Origin: Candidatus Bathyarchaeia archaeon
GTDB taxonomy: Archaea > Thermoproteota > Bathyarchaeia > 40CM-2-53-6 > DTGE01
Reading direction: 5' to 3'
Assembly (NCBI GenBank): GCA_038852285.1
Contig: JAWCKG010000011.1
Location: 1 to 45,646, forward strand
DNA length: 45,646 nucleotides
Notes under the pieces: generated by a model
Database searches by the model: none
Seen by the model: only the letters and a program-made list of their open reading frames with translations
What the model was told of the DNA's origin: nothing
Shown: piece by piece, positions 2,836-8,282 of the stretch
Position numbering within the stretch: the stretch's first letter is position 1
How the letters are laid out: each line of letters begins with the position of its first letter
Translations under genes and position numbers: made by a program

Positions 2836-3064
2836 CCAACATCAACCTGAATACGCCAATGACGTCTTAAAAGCTTTACAAACCACGCCTGCTCGCCGAA
2901 ACGCTTCAACAACTTCTCCATTTTCAACTCAACACGACACCCTGGCATTGTTATATTTTGCTATACCTTGTTATACGGCTAGAATTTCCTCGGTGTAAAG
3001 GGTAAGAACGCCCCCTTCACCACGCTGTTACCCAGGATCTTCACGATCGCCTTCCACTCCTTGA

Positions 3065-3317
3065 CTAGCCGACTGCGAACATAAACCTCCACCCCCTCCT
3101 TGAGGAAAACCAGCTCAATTCCCCTTTTGTTAAACCATCTTCCGCGATTATTTCGAGTAGGCCTCTTTCCATCTCGCTGTGTTTTGGGACAGGAATGATG
3201 ATAGTTGTTTTTGATGAGAATGACGTGGCTACCCTTCCGCCCCACGCTTCTAAAGCCAGCCTCAACCAAGGCTTTAACAACGCCACGCCACGACAGCAGC
3301 AGGGGGAGCATCAACAA
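3065..3317 (-). pseudogene. hicA: hicA-like mRNA interferase with a frameshift
   Basis: Two reverse-strand frames together make one HicA. From ATG at 3317 the first frame gives WRGVVKALVEAGF then RKGSHVILIKN, the HicA double-stranded-RNA-binding start with its GSH catalytic His. It then continues out of register. The +1 frame supplies TIIIPVPKHSEMERGLLEII and AEDGLTKGEL, the conserved HicA C-terminus, and ends at 3065. The switch falls near 3200-3212 next to a run of five A. HicA is a toxin RNase of about 60-80 residues, so one indel kills it unless ribosomes shift frame there. No HicB-like gene is adjacent, so the toxin would have no visible antitoxin. A sequencing error in the A-run is the alternative. 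Confidence 0.8.
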
Positions 3318-3449: not shown

Positions 3450-3755
3450 CTAAACTTCTATGAGTTCATCTGTTGGAATGAACCGCCTATACCATCTATT
3501 AAGCATCGCCTTATTGGCGACGTGGAGTTCCAGAGGCTCCTCCAAAGCCTTATACACTTTAACCATCATGTCGTATCTACGTTCAACCATCTCAGTAACT
3601 ATCAATATGTCTATGTCGCTTAAGGCCGTGGTTTCACCTCTGACGGCTGAGCCGAATAGATAAATTTGCGCGCATGGATCTATATCCTGCACTATTGCTT
3701 TAACACGTCTAGCCGCATTAAGATGATCCCTAAATTCTTTCTCCGTATTCATCAA
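3450..3755 (-). CDS. MNT-type nucleotidyltransferase (pair 3)
   Basis: A 101-residue minimal nucleotidyltransferase with a textbook motif, LFGSAVRGE followed by SDIDILIV, giving Gly-Ser and the two metal-binding Asp. LELHVANKAM may hold the third acidic position. It overlaps the upstream HEPN stop codon by four bases (ATGA), so both proteins are made from one message. The likely role is antitoxin and AMP-transferase, by analogy with MntA. Confidence 0.9.
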   Translation of the reverse strand: MMNTEKEFRDHLNAARRVKAIVQDIDPCAQIYLFGSAVRGETTALSDIDILIVTEMVERRYDMMVKVYKALEEPLELHVANKAMLNRWYRRFIPTDELIEV

Positions 3756-4138
3756 ACCTCATCCACAAGCAACTTAAACTTGCTTGTTACAAACCTGTGA
3801 AGGCTTTGAGCTTCTCCCTCTTCATAACTGTATGGAATATACCTTGAAGTTACATACGCCTCTTCAAGTCGAGCCACATAGTGAAGCTCTTCCTCATCTT
3901 CAACCAAGGAAAGCAATTTGGGATGAAACCTTGCAAGCTCCCTTATTAACCTTCTAAGGGAATGCGTTCTCGGATATGAGCCTACCTTAACCAAAAGTTT
4001 ATACTTTAAAATCAGCTGGCAATACTGCTCTAAGTTGAAAACCGCTAGATCCCATTCGCCGCTTTCAAGGAGATACTCAGCATTCCTCAAGAAGGCTTCA
4101 GCCCGCCTCCGAAGAACCTCTGCTTCCTCAAAAGACAT
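3752..4138 (-). CDS. HEPN domain protein (pair 3)
   Basis: A HEPN protein of 128 residues: MSFEEAEVLRRRAEAFLRNA, then DLAVFNLEQYCQLILKYKLL, PRTHSLRRLI and the closing AYVTSRYIP. A longer frame opens at 4192, but I chose ATG 4138. GGTGA stands seven bases before it, and a TATA box (4171-4180) lies inside the longer version about 35 bases upstream. As in pairs 1 and 2 there is no HepT R-x4-H-x-Y motif. The MNT partner follows with a 4-base overlap. Confidence 0.87.
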   Translation of the reverse strand: MSFEEAEVLRRRAEAFLRNAEYLLESGEWDLAVFNLEQYCQLILKYKLLVKVGSYPRTHSLRRLIRELARFHPKLLSLVEDEEELHYVARLEEAYVTSRYIPYSYEEGEAQSLHRFVTSKFKLLVDEV

Positions 4139-4170
4139 GCCACTCACCGCATAACATTTGACTAGAGAAG

Positions 4171-4180
4171 ATATAAATGG
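4171..4180 (-). promoter_or_regulatory. TATA box of pair 3
   Basis: CCATTTATAT on the reverse strand places the transcription start near 4148. That leaves a short leader containing the GGTGA ribosome site before ATG 4138, and it decides the start codon of the HEPN gene. Confidence 0.55.
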
Positions 4181-4192
4181 CATTATTTTCAC

Positions 4193-4554: not shown

Positions 4555-5036
4555 ATGTTAAGTAGGATGCCTGAAAATTTAATTGAGTTCTTCAAGAATG
4601 AGGAAAAGATTTTGGTAGTCTACCTATTCGGCTCATAGGTGAAGGGAGGAAAGACACCTTCAAGCGATGTCGACATCGCCCTTCTACTATCTGAAGAACC
4701 CAAGACCATGAAGGAATTGCTTGAATACTACCTGTACCTGTTAAATAAGCTATCTAACGTATTCGGGGACAGGGTTGATTCAATAATTTTAAACCTCTCC
4801 CCACCCTTACTTAAACATCAGGCGATTAAACACGGTAAGCTCATCTATTCCAGAAGCGAGAGGGCGAGGGTAGAATTCGAAGCGAGAAGCCAAAGAGAAT
4901 ACTTAGATTTTAGCCTAGCGTTAGCAATGTATGATGAATGTTTCATGAATGTTTCATGTACGAATCTCTACAAACAAAATTTTCAGACATCGAGGAATTC
5001 ATCAAACATATCGCAAAGTACCTGGAGGGACGGTAA
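4555..5036 (+). pseudogene. mntA: mntA-like nucleotidyltransferase broken by an amber codon and an 11-bp duplication
   Basis: From ATG 4555 the frame reads MLSRMPENLIEFFKNEEK then VYLFGS, a TAG at 4636-4638, then VKGGKTPSSDVDIALLL. The stop sits inside the G-S-x-x-x-G catalytic loop, where related proteins have Tyr or a similar residue (one base from TAG). At 4936-4957 the 11-mer GAATGTTTCAT is present twice in tandem, shifting the frame. With one copy removed, the frame continues through YESLQTKFSDIEEFIKHIAK to a natural TAA at 5036, giving a protein of about 155 residues. It is therefore an MntA-family antitoxin gene carrying two independent lesions. No HEPN partner follows it. Confidence 0.88.
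4936..4957. repeat. 11-bp tandem duplication inside mntA
   Basis: GAATGTTTCAT occurs at 4936-4946 and again at 4947-4957. Eleven is not a multiple of three. Deleting one copy restores a protein-like frame to the end of the gene, so the duplication is the frameshifting mutation. Confidence 0.9.
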
Positions 5037-5265
5037 AATAAATCGCTCACGCCCCTTAACTGAGAACGTTGCGGCCGCCCATTGTGCATCGTTTCCAAGC
5101 GTATTGGCAGCATTTTTTAAGGCTGTTAGGGCGTGGAGACGCAGTTAAGCCATGAAAAGTGCGAATCGATAAGTGAGGCTTAACCAGCTCGGATAGGCTT
5201 AGGGCAGAGGCATCCAACAAACGTCCGCCAATATAAGCTCACAGGCCTCAAAGTAAAGATCGAGG

Positions 5266-5278: not shown

Positions 5279-5311
5279 GAGAGGTGCGCCTCCTCATATT
5301 GGGATTTGAAA

Positions 5312-5533
5312 ATGGAAATAAAAATTGGGAATAAAGGGAGGGTGACGATTCCAAGCAAATTGAGGCTCCTTTTAGGCATTAAGGAAGGAGACTCCCTGTC
5401 AATCGAGGTTTCCGGCAGCGGCATACTCCTAAAGCCCAAGGGGGCTACTCTCGAAGAAACGTGGGGTTTAGTTCGAGTTGGCAAGGTTGAGGTTGAAGAG
5501 GTTGAGGAGGCCGCGGGAAGGGAGATCATTTGA
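5312..5533 (+). CDS. vapB: AbrB/SpoVT-type antitoxin (VapB)
   Basis: A 73-residue swapped-hairpin AbrB protein: MEIKIGNKGRVTIPSKLR, then LLGIKEGDSLSIEVSGSG and ILLKPKG, the classic DNA-binding barrel half. The acidic C-terminus (KVEVEEVEEAAGREII) would be the part that occupies the toxin. A TTG two codons earlier (5306) is an alternative start. It forms an operon with the PIN gene, whose TTG start overlaps the TGA stop. VapB usually represses its own operon by binding near the TATA box. Confidence 0.9.
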   Translation: MEIKIGNKGRVTIPSKLRLLLGIKEGDSLSIEVSGSGILLKPKGATLEETWGLVRVGKVEVEEVEEAAGREII

Positions 5534-5931
5534 GCTTTGTAGATTCCAACGTGTTTGTATACCATTTGGCCGCAGACCCCTTATACGGACAAAAAGCTAG
5601 GAGCCTGCTGGAAAGGATAGAGGCCGGTGGGAGGGCCGTTACATCTACGCTGGTGATCATCCAGGTTTGCAGCTATCTTAAGTGGAAGAAGGAGCAGAAC
5701 GCGATACCAATTTTCCTATCGCTCCTGAAGCGATTAACCACCCTGGAGAAAGTTGAGGCGAATATGCTGGATTTCGAGGAGGCAAAGTCCATACAGTCAG
5801 AGTTAAACCTACCATGGTCGATGTGGGACGATATGGTGATCGCCGCTCAAATGAGGAGACTCCAAATAAAAGAAATATATTCGAACGACGGAGACTTCGA
5901 CAAAATTCCATGGATCAAAAGAACCTTCTAA
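5530..5931 (+). CDS. vapC: PIN-domain RNase toxin (VapC)
   Basis: A 133-residue PIN domain with TTG start. VDSNVFVYHL supplies the first metal Asp, WDDMVIAAQM the middle acidic cluster, and YSNDGDFDKIPWIKRTF the last Asp and a typical C-terminus. PIN toxins cut RNA with a Mg2+ site of three or four acids. At the second position, where VapC normally has Glu after the T-S strand, this protein reads TSTLVIIQV, so a Gln appears to replace the Glu. Activity may be lowered or lost. The neighbouring AbrB gene is the cognate antitoxin. Confidence 0.88.
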   Translation: MSFVDSNVFVYHLAADPLYGQKARSLLERIEAGGRAVTSTLVIIQVCSYLKWKKEQNAIPIFLSLLKRLTTLEKVEANMLDFEEAKSIQSELNLPWSMWDDMVIAAQMRRLQIKEIYSNDGDFDKIPWIKRTF

Positions 5932-6183
5932 CCTATAAGCCAAAACTTCAGAAAAAAGGGATCCCGCAAGTAAGGGTCAAGGCGAAGATTTAGGCTTTCA
6001 AGTATGGCTAAGCCTATACCATGATTAAGCCTTACCAAGCCTCCGACCTCCTCCTCATCACCCCTCTCCCAAACCGAGCATGGATTCCGGCTAGGAGCCC
6101 CACCTTCCCCGCGTCCTTCCCCAGAGACCACTCAGAATCCCAACCCACCTTTAAAAAGACGTGAATACAGCTATACGGAAAAA

Positions 6184-6192
6184 TATTTATAT
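6184..6192 (+). promoter_or_regulatory. TATA box of the RHH/protease pair
   Basis: TATTTATAT lies about 38 bases before ATG 6226, so transcription would begin near 6213 and the short leader excludes the longer frame opened at 6196. The rest of 5932-6183 is gene-free. Confidence 0.6.
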
Positions 6193-6225
6193 GGATTGAA
6201 GGCAAACCATCAATACGGAATAAGC

Positions 6226-6642
6226 ATGGTCAAGACAACAGTCGAAGTGGATGATGACCTCTGGAGGAGGTTCAGCATCCTCGTGCTCCGCGAAAAAGGC
6301 GAACGAAAGAAGAGCGAGACCATAGCCAAGCTGATCGAGGAATACGTTGAGAGGGAAGGTTTGAGGGGGGATCGGCGGAGGCTGGAGCACATCCTGAGGT
6401 TGGAGGAGGAAAGGGAGTCCTTCCTCAAGATGAGGGATGAACTGACCAGGGACCCAAACTACGCTGGAAGGTATGTCGCGGTGTTTCGAGGCGCCGTCGT
6501 GGGCTGCGGCGAGGATAAGGGCAAGCTCGCCGAGGAGGTTTACAAGAAATATGGATACGTACCCATCTACATTGAACGAGTAACCGCGGGTGAAAGGCGC
6601 GTTGAGGCGCCATCCCCCGAGGCGGTCCACCGTGGAGTATAG
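6226..6642 (+). CDS. Ribbon-helix-helix protein fused to a DUF5678-like domain
   Basis: A 138-residue protein. Residues 1-44 (MVKTTVEVDDDLWRRFSILV through KSETIAKLIEEYVERE) look like a ribbon-helix-helix DNA-binding unit with an antitoxin-style N-terminal strand. A charged helical linker follows. Residues about 82-125 contain YAGRYVAVFRGAVVGCGEDK and YGYVPIYIERV, the pattern I know from DUF5678. Domains of that type often stand next to clan AA proteases in archaeal and bacterial genomes, but I cannot verify this here. The stop codon overlaps the start of the retropepsin-like gene, so the pair is co-translated. It is probably an autorepressor and/or partner of the protease. Confidence 0.75.
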   Translation: MVKTTVEVDDDLWRRFSILVLREKGERKKSETIAKLIEEYVEREGLRGDRRRLEHILRLEEERESFLKMRDELTRDPNYAGRYVAVFRGAVVGCGEDKGKLAEEVYKKYGYVPIYIERVTAGERRVEAPSPEAVHRGV

Positions 6643-7003
6643 CCTCGAGTACGATCCCCCAGCCCCGGCCTTGAAGGTGAGGGTCGGCAAACCGCTCTCG
6701 GACAAATACATCGAGCTTCAGGCCAAACTGGACACAGGCGCGGATATGACCGTAATCCCCGAGAGCGCGATAGATAGAGCTGGGATCATCCCAGCCAGCC
6801 GAGTCTACGTTTCAACGTTCAAGGGAGAGGAGGATGCGGAGTATACCTACTTCGTAGACCTGTCCCTACCAGGCTATGAATTCCACATGGTAGAGGTCAT
6901 CGGCTCCAAGCGTCAAGACATCCTCCTAGGCAGGGATATCCTCAACGCCCTAAGGTTAACGCTCGACGGCAAGGCCCAAACCTTCACCATAACCGACCCT
7001 TAA
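6632..7003 (+). CDS. Retropepsin-like clan AA aspartic protease
   Basis: A 123-residue single-lobe aspartic protease. It has the active-site loop AKLDTGADMTVIPESAI (Asp34-Thr-Gly-Ala), a flap-like region around STFKGEEDAEYTY, and the second signature DILLGRDIL that completes the psi loop. Length and motifs fit retropepsin-like proteins, which must dimerise to build one active site. I chose GTG 6632, which overlaps the upstream stop and leaves only the domain. A GTG at 6590 would add 14 Arg-rich residues. There is no signal peptide, so it acts in the cytoplasm. The substrate is unknown, and the overlapping RHH protein is the obvious candidate partner or target. Confidence 0.85.
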   Translation: MEYSLEYDPPAPALKVRVGKPLSDKYIELQAKLDTGADMTVIPESAIDRAGIIPASRVYVSTFKGEEDAEYTYFVDLSLPGYEFHMVEVIGSKRQDILLGRDILNALRLTLDGKAQTFTITDP

Positions 7004-7333
7004 GCTTAACACCGATTAGAAGCCTCATAACGGCGTTAAAAGATGATGCTTCAAGTTGACAAGCCCACTTCAACCGCGATCTCAAACATTAATTATCTTC
7101 GGCTTCAGCCATGCCATTTCCCACCAATGTGCGGCGTCCCTTGAACATCTTCGACGCTAAAAAGGCTCCAACCGTTTACCTGGCTCAACTCCCAATTTTC
7201 GGTTAGGAGAAAATGGATTCGTGTAAACATAGGGAAAGGTTTGCCATGACAGCACCTTTTCAAACATCCCGCGACGCGAATCATTTCACGGGATTACCCA
7301 ATATCTCGCTCAGGACCCTGTCATGGATGAGCT
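7004..7333. other. Gene-free gap downstream of the protease
   Basis: About 330 bases without a credible gene on either strand. On the reverse strand, just past the mntA stop, a different frame reads KLIHDRVLSEILGNPVK, which could be the lost C-terminus of that gene after a frameshift. This is weak. Confidence 0.35.
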
Positions 7334-7801
7334 TTACACCTCAGACATGCCCTTTCGGCGGTAAATCTCGCCTCCTCTGACGCCTGTCTCCGTTAACAGC
7401 CTAAGATCCGCGTAATGTCGAGCAGTCATATCGGCCAACCTCAGCCTCAGCTCCTCATCCCTGGAGAGGAGTAGCTTACCTCGAGTGAAGACGTAGTGCT
7501 TGAACGGCAGCGGAGCTTCGTTCAGGACCTGAACGTCCACCGAGACCCCGACCTCGATTCCCAGCCAAGCTGAGAAATCAACCGTGTAGTAGAAGGCCTT
7601 TTCAGGATCCCTTATCCAGACAGCTATGTCTAAATCCCTGAACGAGCTACCCTCTACGAAGCTTCCGTAAACATATGCGAACACGACATCATCAACGCCC
7701 AGAATCCTCCTCCTCACCTCTTCAAGGAGCTTAAGCCTCCGCTCAGCCGACAGCTCACGGCGCTTAAACTCGAGACGAGCAAAATCCGTGAACCCGCTCA
7801 T
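7334..7801 (-). CDS. mntA: MntA-type nucleotidyltransferase antitoxin (pair 4)
   Basis: A 155-residue nucleotidyltransferase with YVYGSFVEGSSFRDLDIAVW, containing Gly-Ser and the D-x-D metal site, and a later acid in GVSVDVQVLNEA. It is longer than the other MNT proteins here and matches the MntA subtype. MntA transfers AMP onto a Tyr of HepT and so neutralises it. The gene starts with a 4-base ATGA overlap at the end of the HepT gene. Order and motifs make this the one classical type VII MntA-HepT module in the island. Confidence 0.92.
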   Translation of the reverse strand: MSGFTDFARLEFKRRELSAERRLKLLEEVRRRILGVDDVVFAYVYGSFVEGSSFRDLDIAVWIRDPEKAFYYTVDFSAWLGIEVGVSVDVQVLNEAPLPFKHYVFTRGKLLLSRDEELRLRLADMTARHYADLRLLTETGVRGGEIYRRKGMSEV

Positions 7802-8220
7802 GCCCCACCCTTCTCCAAGAAGCCTCTAACATGCAGGATGAAAGTCTCAAAATCCTTTAACCCATCCTTCACGCTCTCATACACTTTATCGTCAGAGATC
7901 ACCCAATACCTGTGCACGAGCAGGTTTCTAAGCCTAGCGGCTGAGGAGAGCCGAGACGCCAATTCTCCTGGTATAACGCCCTTAACCCCAAGCCTCACAA
8001 AACACTCGGGAAACCCCTCAACCCCCTCATTAAAAACGTTCAAAAGAAGGCGCATACATATGCTGGAGGAAGCCTCCACCAGCTGGATAACAAGGTACCT
8101 CATCGAAAGCCTCTCGTGAACCGTCAACTCCCCAAACCCCTTGCCCGTGAGGCTCCTAAGCATCTGAACGGCGTCATTAATTTCCCTAACCCTAGCTTCA
8201 ATCGCCTCGTCAACAGGCAT
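7798..8220 (-). CDS. hepT: HepT-type HEPN RNase toxin (DUF86)
   Basis: A 140-residue DUF86 HEPN toxin. The catalytic R-x4-H-x-Y motif is complete in ARLRNLLVHRYWV. In studied HepT proteins Arg and His cut RNA and the Tyr is the AMPylation target of MntA. The upstream helices (MRYLVIQLVEASSSICMRLL) are typical of the dimer interface. I start it at ATG 8220 rather than 8232, because GGTGA lies eight bases before the former. MntA follows with a 4-base overlap. Confidence 0.92.
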   Translation of the reverse strand: MPVDEAIEARVREINDAVQMLRSLTGKGFGELTVHERLSMRYLVIQLVEASSSICMRLLLNVFNEGVEGFPECFVRLGVKGVIPGELASRLSSAARLRNLLVHRYWVISDDKVYESVKDGLKDFETFILHVRGFLEKGGA

Positions 8221-8282
8221 ACATCGATTCACCCTTCAACTCCAGAAACACCTTCCATTCCTCTTAACTTTATCCAATTCAA

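Follow-up and report, generated by a model that had tools for sequence, protein, structure and literature searches.

The described arrangement closest to the one reported here is that of the COG2856 (ImmA-like) Zn-proteases and their Xre partners, which have been predicted to be related to toxin-antitoxin (TA) systems (Makarova 2009, PMC2701414). In both cases, a protease is found beside, or fused to, a DNA-binding protein of the antitoxin type. However, the proteins are unrelated: COG2856 members are HEXXH metalloproteases with Xre HTH partners, whereas the present pair combines a clan AA aspartic protease with a ribbon-helix-helix (RHH) or Phd protein that also contains DUF5678.

Type II TA systems with an RHH, Phd/YefM or AbrB antitoxin gene in first position provide a second point of reference. 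They share with the pair the gene order, gene size and overlap, the DNA-binding N-terminus and constant C-terminal tail of the first protein, the swapping of domains, the occurrence of orphan partners and perhaps a patchy spread. They differ in that the effector of the pair is an aspartic protease, that DUF5678 is not a described part of antitoxins, and that the pair is not seen on plasmids (it was not found in searches of plasmids and viral contigs).

The protease of the pair has the fold and both signatures of the prokaryotic single-domain clan AA peptidases (COG5550, COG3577; SpoIIGA, PerP, Rickettsia APRc). In contrast to it, none of the described members is paired with an antitoxin-type protein, and DUF5678 partners are absent from the solo COG5550-like proteases of Thermoproteota. 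The characterised prokaryotic retropepsins (SpoIIGA, PerP, APRc) act in regulated processing, and to our knowledge retropepsins are not a known class of toxins. The same superfamily includes the PEPT_D proteases of type III CRISPR operons in Sulfolobales (PADLOC) and the PADLOC candidate PDC-M08B. The PEPT_D gene, too, comes after a partner gene that it overlaps and whose product has a small C-terminal domain, but the partners are CARF or RAMP proteins. The PEPT_D model PDLC01133 did not match the protease in the window or the genome from which the window comes, and the match of this protease to PDC-M08B was weak (E 0.017).

The gene pair and its products

The window is the whole stretch of 45,646 nucleotides from a Candidatus Bathyarchaeia archaeon that was analysed. 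It contains two small, co-directional and overlapping genes, with the regulator first:

6226-6642, plus strand: gene A, ATG open reading frame of 138 amino acids, an antitoxin-shaped regulator with RHH domain, long helix, DUF5678-like domain and C-terminal tail
6226-6357, plus strand: RHH domain of A, residues 1-44, from hhalign and PDB profile matches
6460-6579, plus strand: DUF5678-like domain of A, residues 79-118, beta-beta-alpha-beta behind the long helix
6595-6627, plus strand: conserved C-terminal tail of A, RRVEAPSPEAV, residues 124-134
6632-7003, plus strand: gene B, GTG start, 123 amino acids, a retropepsin-like (clan AA) aspartic protease
6731-6745, plus strand: active-site motif D34-T-G-A-D of B, with the Asp and Gly conserved in downstream proteases
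6923-6937, plus strand: second clan AA signature of B (hydrophobic-hydrophobic-Gly), LLGRD, residues 98-102

The start of B at the GTG in position 6632 was set by alignment with homologues, the start codons of which align there, and results in an overlap of 11 nt with A. An earlier note on this DNA had reported both reading frames at the same positions, with the same numbering of D34, and had described an RHH-type gene ending inside the start of a protease gene, in agreement with our findings. Order and spacing are alike in the relatives, where A also comes first, overlaps B in 26 of 46 cases, and lies at most 50 nt from it in 18 more. As part of what we regard as the best explanation, the two genes probably form a translationally coupled module.

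B scores above the Pfam cut-offs for PF13975 (41 bits), PF13650 (38.5 bits) and RVP (26 bits), and its profile matches in the PDB are the HTLV-1, HIV and DDI1 proteases. The AF2 monomer model (pLDDT 94) consists of a single retropepsin lobe, for which Foldseek returned the EIAV, SFV, XMRV, HIV and APRc proteases as best matches. B thus has the D-[ST]-G and hydrophobic-hydrophobic-Gly signatures, the single-lobe length and the retropepsin fold of clan AA peptidases. Among 85 alignable downstream proteases, collected with no motif filter, all have the catalytic Asp and 82 the Gly of the active-site motif. The Gly of LLGRD is invariant in A2 and present in 71 of 76 proteins of a wider set. The catalytic residues of B are in place, and B appears to be an intact clan AA protease. 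The active-looking single-lobe aspartic protease of the earlier note is thus borne out by Pfam, fold and motifs. All profile matches of B are to clan AA protease models, with no known toxin family among them, and B has no HEXXH motif. With an aspartic protease as B and an RHH in A, the pair falls outside the COG2856/ImmA-Xre class.

The alignment of the N-terminal family of A with NikR/CopG/Arc/EndoAI covers 43 columns (hhalign probability 93%), and the top PDB profile match of this part is NikR (E 0.06). Pfam did not detect an RHH in A alone, though the comparison at the family level upholds the RHH that had been proposed before. The DUF5678 (PF18929) score of A, 16.0 bits, is below the curated Pfam cut-off of 23.2 bits. 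The domain can nevertheless be placed, because the Pfam model matches 25 of 29 relatives, several of them above the cut-off, and A aligns continuously with these relatives; the DUF5678-like part recognized in the earlier note is in this way confirmed. In the AF2 model of A, the DUF5678 block is confident (pLDDT about 88-94), and the RHH half is of low quality, as different N-termini are mixed in the alignment. A fold search with this model gave no significant match. Like type II antitoxins, A combines a DNA-binding domain of the antitoxin type with a constant C-terminal part.

The tail of A contains an S-P dipeptide, which is found within the last 32 residues of 24 of the 29 partners in A3 and 21 of the 30 Chloroflexota partners, and in none of these partners within the preceding 32 residues (shuffled mean 2.3). 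Five Chloroflexota partners without DUF5678 retain the tail, in the form S-P-x-L. It is a property of the subfamily present in the window, and the tails of other archaeal subfamilies differ from it (4 of 46). We also considered that the tail could be a mere by-product of the ribosome-binding site of B. This was rejected, because in five Chloroflexota loci (L287-L291) about 20 codons separate the tail from the end of A, and because the residues after S-P vary. The constant C-terminal part of A may well be the part that binds B.

Conservation and modularity of the pair

The earlier note had made its proposal depend on conserved adjacency of the two families, and the pairing turned out to be strongly conserved and more general than that note saw. 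In 251 genomes of the class, each full-length relative of A directly precedes a relative of B, and two weaker protease relatives (E about 1e-8) are also preceded by a DUF5678-like gene. A scan of 84,980 prokaryote species genomes with the protease alignment yielded 34 loci in Bathyarchaeota, Brockarchaeota, Baldrarchaeota, Nitrososphaeria and many bacterial phyla. A DUF5678-type gene is located directly upstream of the protease in all 34 loci, although it is cut short in L174 and frameshifted in L190. Pfam, which was not used for finding the loci, assigns DUF5678 to 25 of 29 partners and gag-asp_proteas to 30 of 31 proteases of the scan. When the search started from DUF5678 in 349 genomes of the phylum, it gave 78 archaeal genes, and 56 of these have a clan AA protease just downstream, according to a protease profile that had been partly built from such downstream proteins. 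In a mostly bacterial sample, composed of the genomes to which the 34 loci led and 100 genomes of one Chloroflexota class, 33 of 57 DUF5678 genes have a protease just downstream or, once, fused. The survey numbers include near-duplicate genomes (L066-L068), and several genomes with G numbers are the same records as L166-L199. With dozens of genomes showing it, the adjacency of A and B is not due to chance.

In the 100 Chloroflexota genomes, a search that started from the protease yielded 43 matches, 30 of them with loci, and DUF5678 is in front of the protease in 25 of these 30. The other five proteases are the lowest-scoring ones of the 30, and have another small antitoxin-like gene, overlapping or adjacent, in front. 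This gene belongs to Phd/YefM in L287 (34 bits, over the cut-off), is AF2212-like in L288 (17 bits, under the cut-off) and, by eye, similar in L289 and L291, and is unassigned in L290. A full-length protease of the window subfamily without a partner was not seen in the surveys; orphans of DUF5678 are common. The distances between the C-terminal parts of A correlate with those between the proteases (Mantel r 0.85 for 73 pairs, 0.71 for 54 non-redundant pairs, 0.88 for 18 bacterial pairs). This suggests co-evolution of A and B, with a contribution of shared species history to the correlation.

The region in front of DUF5678 can be an RHH of several kinds, Phd/YefM, a DUF2281-like domain, an AbiEi-like winged helix, a histone fold, HEAT, or nothing. 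Phd/YefM (44.4 bits) and archaeal histone (49.9 bits) domains are fused to DUF5678 with scores above the cut-off, and AbiEi HTH, FitA RHH and DUF2281 with scores near it. Many protease partners have no DNA-binding domain at all, and some partners with a Phd or AF2212-like domain have the tail alone, without DUF5678. Because the N-terminal domain of the partner varies, and DUF5678 or the tail and the protease are constant, the RHH is, by this comparison, not the defining part of the pair; DUF5678 or the C-terminal tail, together with the protease, is. The earlier proposal of an RHH-protease pair thus holds for the pairing and not for the RHH, as the partner family is modular.

Some variants of the arrangement deserve mention. 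In Baldrarchaeota (L175:690-1591), an archaeal histone fold is fused to DUF5678 ahead of the protease. A Chloroflexota genome (G545, L202:1441-2058) encodes DUF5678 and protease in a natural single chain of 206 amino acids, with both domains over the cut-off and a retropepsin domain that looks active. In L079, DUF5678 is fused to an apparent protease domain that lacks the DTG motif, and a separate pair is adjacent. In a split version with three genes (L066-L068, 1209-1376 in match orientation), an RHH gene (RHH_6, 23 bits) immediately precedes a gene for DUF5678 alone, which the protease follows. DUF5678 is, judged by its distribution, not a dedicated anti-protease, because it also occurs without a protease, for example fused to a receiver domain. 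In L211, and by eye in L229, it stands behind the receiver domain of a response regulator. In L231, L235, L244, L248, L250 and L253, it is located within or at the start of long open reading frames, and the one in L235 resembles a nucleotidyltransferase by eye.

In the Sulfolobales genomes G320, G493, G397, G392 and G466 (L258-L264), PEPT_D-type proteases are found directly behind, and overlapping, genes for CARF and winged-helix proteins or type III-G RAMP (Cas7) proteins, in L264 as three units in tandem. Each of these CARF or RAMP partners has a C-terminal extension of about 50 amino acids that is faintly DUF5678-like. The similarity of the extensions to DUF5678 is weak (hhalign probability 35%) and is kept as a lead.

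Promoter, spread and neighbourhood

Two further features were located upstream of A:

6175-6197, plus strand: promoter block with BRE/TATA, conserved in related loci
6168-6223, no strand: possible operator, an imperfect direct repeat with 81% identity from a repeat search, which could be chance

The TATA-like sequence TTTATATGG (6186-6194) is located about 35-40 nt ahead of the ATG of A. The block gggaaaat.TTTATAAGGatt around it is kept in 10 of 11 related loci, despite differing upstream DNA, and the TATA box that the earlier note had ascribed to the pair is thus part of a conserved element. The repeat copies CAGCTATACGGAAAAA (6168-6183) and CATCAATACGGAATAA (6208-6223) are 40 bp apart and flank the TATA box. 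They are a candidate operator, although the repeat could be a chance occurrence.

Among the 38 genomes of the order, 3 have a pair of the window type, including one from a genus whose two other members lack it. Similarity between the window and the related genomes G040 or G061 spans about 6112-7055 and ends there, save for short scattered matches. The flanks of the pair differ between relatives, and no conserved target operon adjoins it. Near the window, pair and promoter thus appear to have spread as a unit, in an island of about 0.9 kb. One copy (G033:C1:136030-136805; L009, L027) is dead: codon 3 of its A gene is a stop, and its B gene is frameshifted.

One might argue that regulator and protease are merely co-transcribed, as parts of a housekeeping operon without functional coupling, especially as many clan AA proteases, and some of the DUF5678 genes, stand without the other. 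In view of the adjacency across many phyla, the co-evolution, the natural fusion, the patchy distribution and the spread as a unit, this explanation is already disfavoured, and we consider it highly improbable.

The pair is surrounded by densely packed TA genes, which form an island at about 3-8.2 kb of the window:

2979-3317, minus strand: HicA-like open reading frame, matching the first half of the model only
3450-4192: HEPN+MNT
4639-5148, plus strand: lone nucleotidyltransferase (MNT) without a HEPN partner
5306-5931: MazE/AbrB+PIN
7334-8232: HepT-like+MNT

At least four TA modules are found within 5 kb of the pair, and the surrounding TA modules of the earlier note were recovered (HEPN+MNT, MazE/AbrB+PIN and HepT-like+MNT). 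The HicA-like frame and the lone MNT look like remnants. PIN, MNT and MazE are among the high-ranking neighbours of the pairs, but PIN and HEPN reach equally high ranks next to solo clan AA proteases. Enrichment of TA genes in the neighbourhood was therefore rejected as a specific sign of the pair, because such genes are as frequent beside the solo proteases. One solo clan AA protease, of the MGHVWV type and without a DUF5678 partner, is present elsewhere in the genome of the window (L002, G000:C20:22182-22412). In Thermoproteota, solo proteases of this type often adjoin HEPN or PIN genes.

Possible modes of action

The pair may be a proteolytic module of the TA type, in which A represses the promoter and silences B, and in which B, once released, cuts cellular proteins. 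We consider the chances of this model to be about even. The exchangeable N-terminal domain of A, here the RHH, would bind the shared promoter and repress it. The C-terminal half, consisting of the DUF5678-like domain and a tail with S-P-x-hydrophobic motif, would bind B and keep it inactive. Upon loss of A, which could be degraded, titrated, or cleaved by B, the protease would dimerize and become active, and its cuts in cellular proteins would stop growth, or elicit a defence or stress response. The steps that we infer are binding and inhibition, autorepression, the toxicity of B and the trigger. The model rests on the anatomy of the locus, the intact catalytic residues, the fold, the conserved pairing and order, the domain swapping, the co-evolution and the spread as a unit. 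The parallel to type II systems is drawn because the regulator comes first, the genes overlap, the DNA-binding domains are swapped in front of a constant C-terminus, and orphans are found for A, but not for full-length B. Nevertheless, the pair is not filed as a type II TA system, though it is laid out like one, because B matches no known toxin family and its toxicity is presumed.

A switch based on a regulated protease also explains the anatomy of A and B. B could cleave A, either between its DNA-binding and C-terminal parts or in the tail, or cleave another repressor, and thus cause derepression on a signal, in the manner of ImmA and ImmR and without any toxin that stops growth. The partner is DNA-binding, the operon is overlapping, and the conserved, extended tail of A could be a substrate or pseudo-substrate. 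There is also a precedent in the predicted Zn-protease COG2856 with its Xre partners (PMC2701414). However, many partners lack a DNA-binding domain, so that there would be no repressor to inactivate, and with flanks that vary among relatives, a conserved target operon beside the pair is missing. Overall, we regard this switch as possible, but rather unlikely.

The great diversity of the N-terminal domains (DNA-binding, HEAT, receiver) suggests yet another role of A, as an adaptor that docks or switches on the protease through DUF5678 or the tail, depending on the fused sensor, which in type III CRISPR might be CARF. B would then be a stress or defence effector, and the pair not an addiction module. 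This would fit with the Sulfolobales PEPT_D proteases, the genes of which come after and overlap that of a CARF-winged-helix protein or of a C-terminally extended RAMP subunit of type III-G, and with the observation that an RHH-DUF5678 protein (L076) is the partner class nearest to the PEPT_D protease. In contrast, the similarity of the CARF and RAMP extensions to DUF5678 is weak, the partner in the window is an RHH protein, and DNA-binding domains of the antitoxin type dominate its subfamily. Overall, we regard an adaptor role as unlikely.

Taken more broadly, the data may be a hint of a widespread and undescribed proteolytic switch, in which a retropepsin-type protease is governed in cis by a DUF5678/S-P-tail module with an exchangeable sensor, and which would encompass TA-like and immune systems. 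The sensors would be antitoxin DNA-binding domains, the histone fold, HEAT, receiver domains, and perhaps CARF proteins or type III-G subunits. We put this forward tentatively, with somewhat less than even confidence.

B as a clan AA peptidase and the antitoxin domains of A are known, and the nearest described idea is the pairing of COG2856 with Xre (PMC2701414). No paper linking DUF5678, retropepsin-like proteases and antitoxins was found in the literature searched, which consisted mostly of papers available without subscription. To this extent, the remark in the earlier note that the type of system was not known as described still applies. The pair is real and conserved and, as far as could be checked, neither it nor a role of DUF5678 has been described before, with the mechanism being the part that we infer.

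The short tail of A and the catalytic residue of B are directly testable parts of the model. If A restrains B, archaea and bacteria of many phyla would have a TA-like system with an aspartic protease as the effector. This would also give a function to DUF5678, and likewise to a subfamily of the prokaryotic retropepsins, the cellular relatives of the retroviral proteases.
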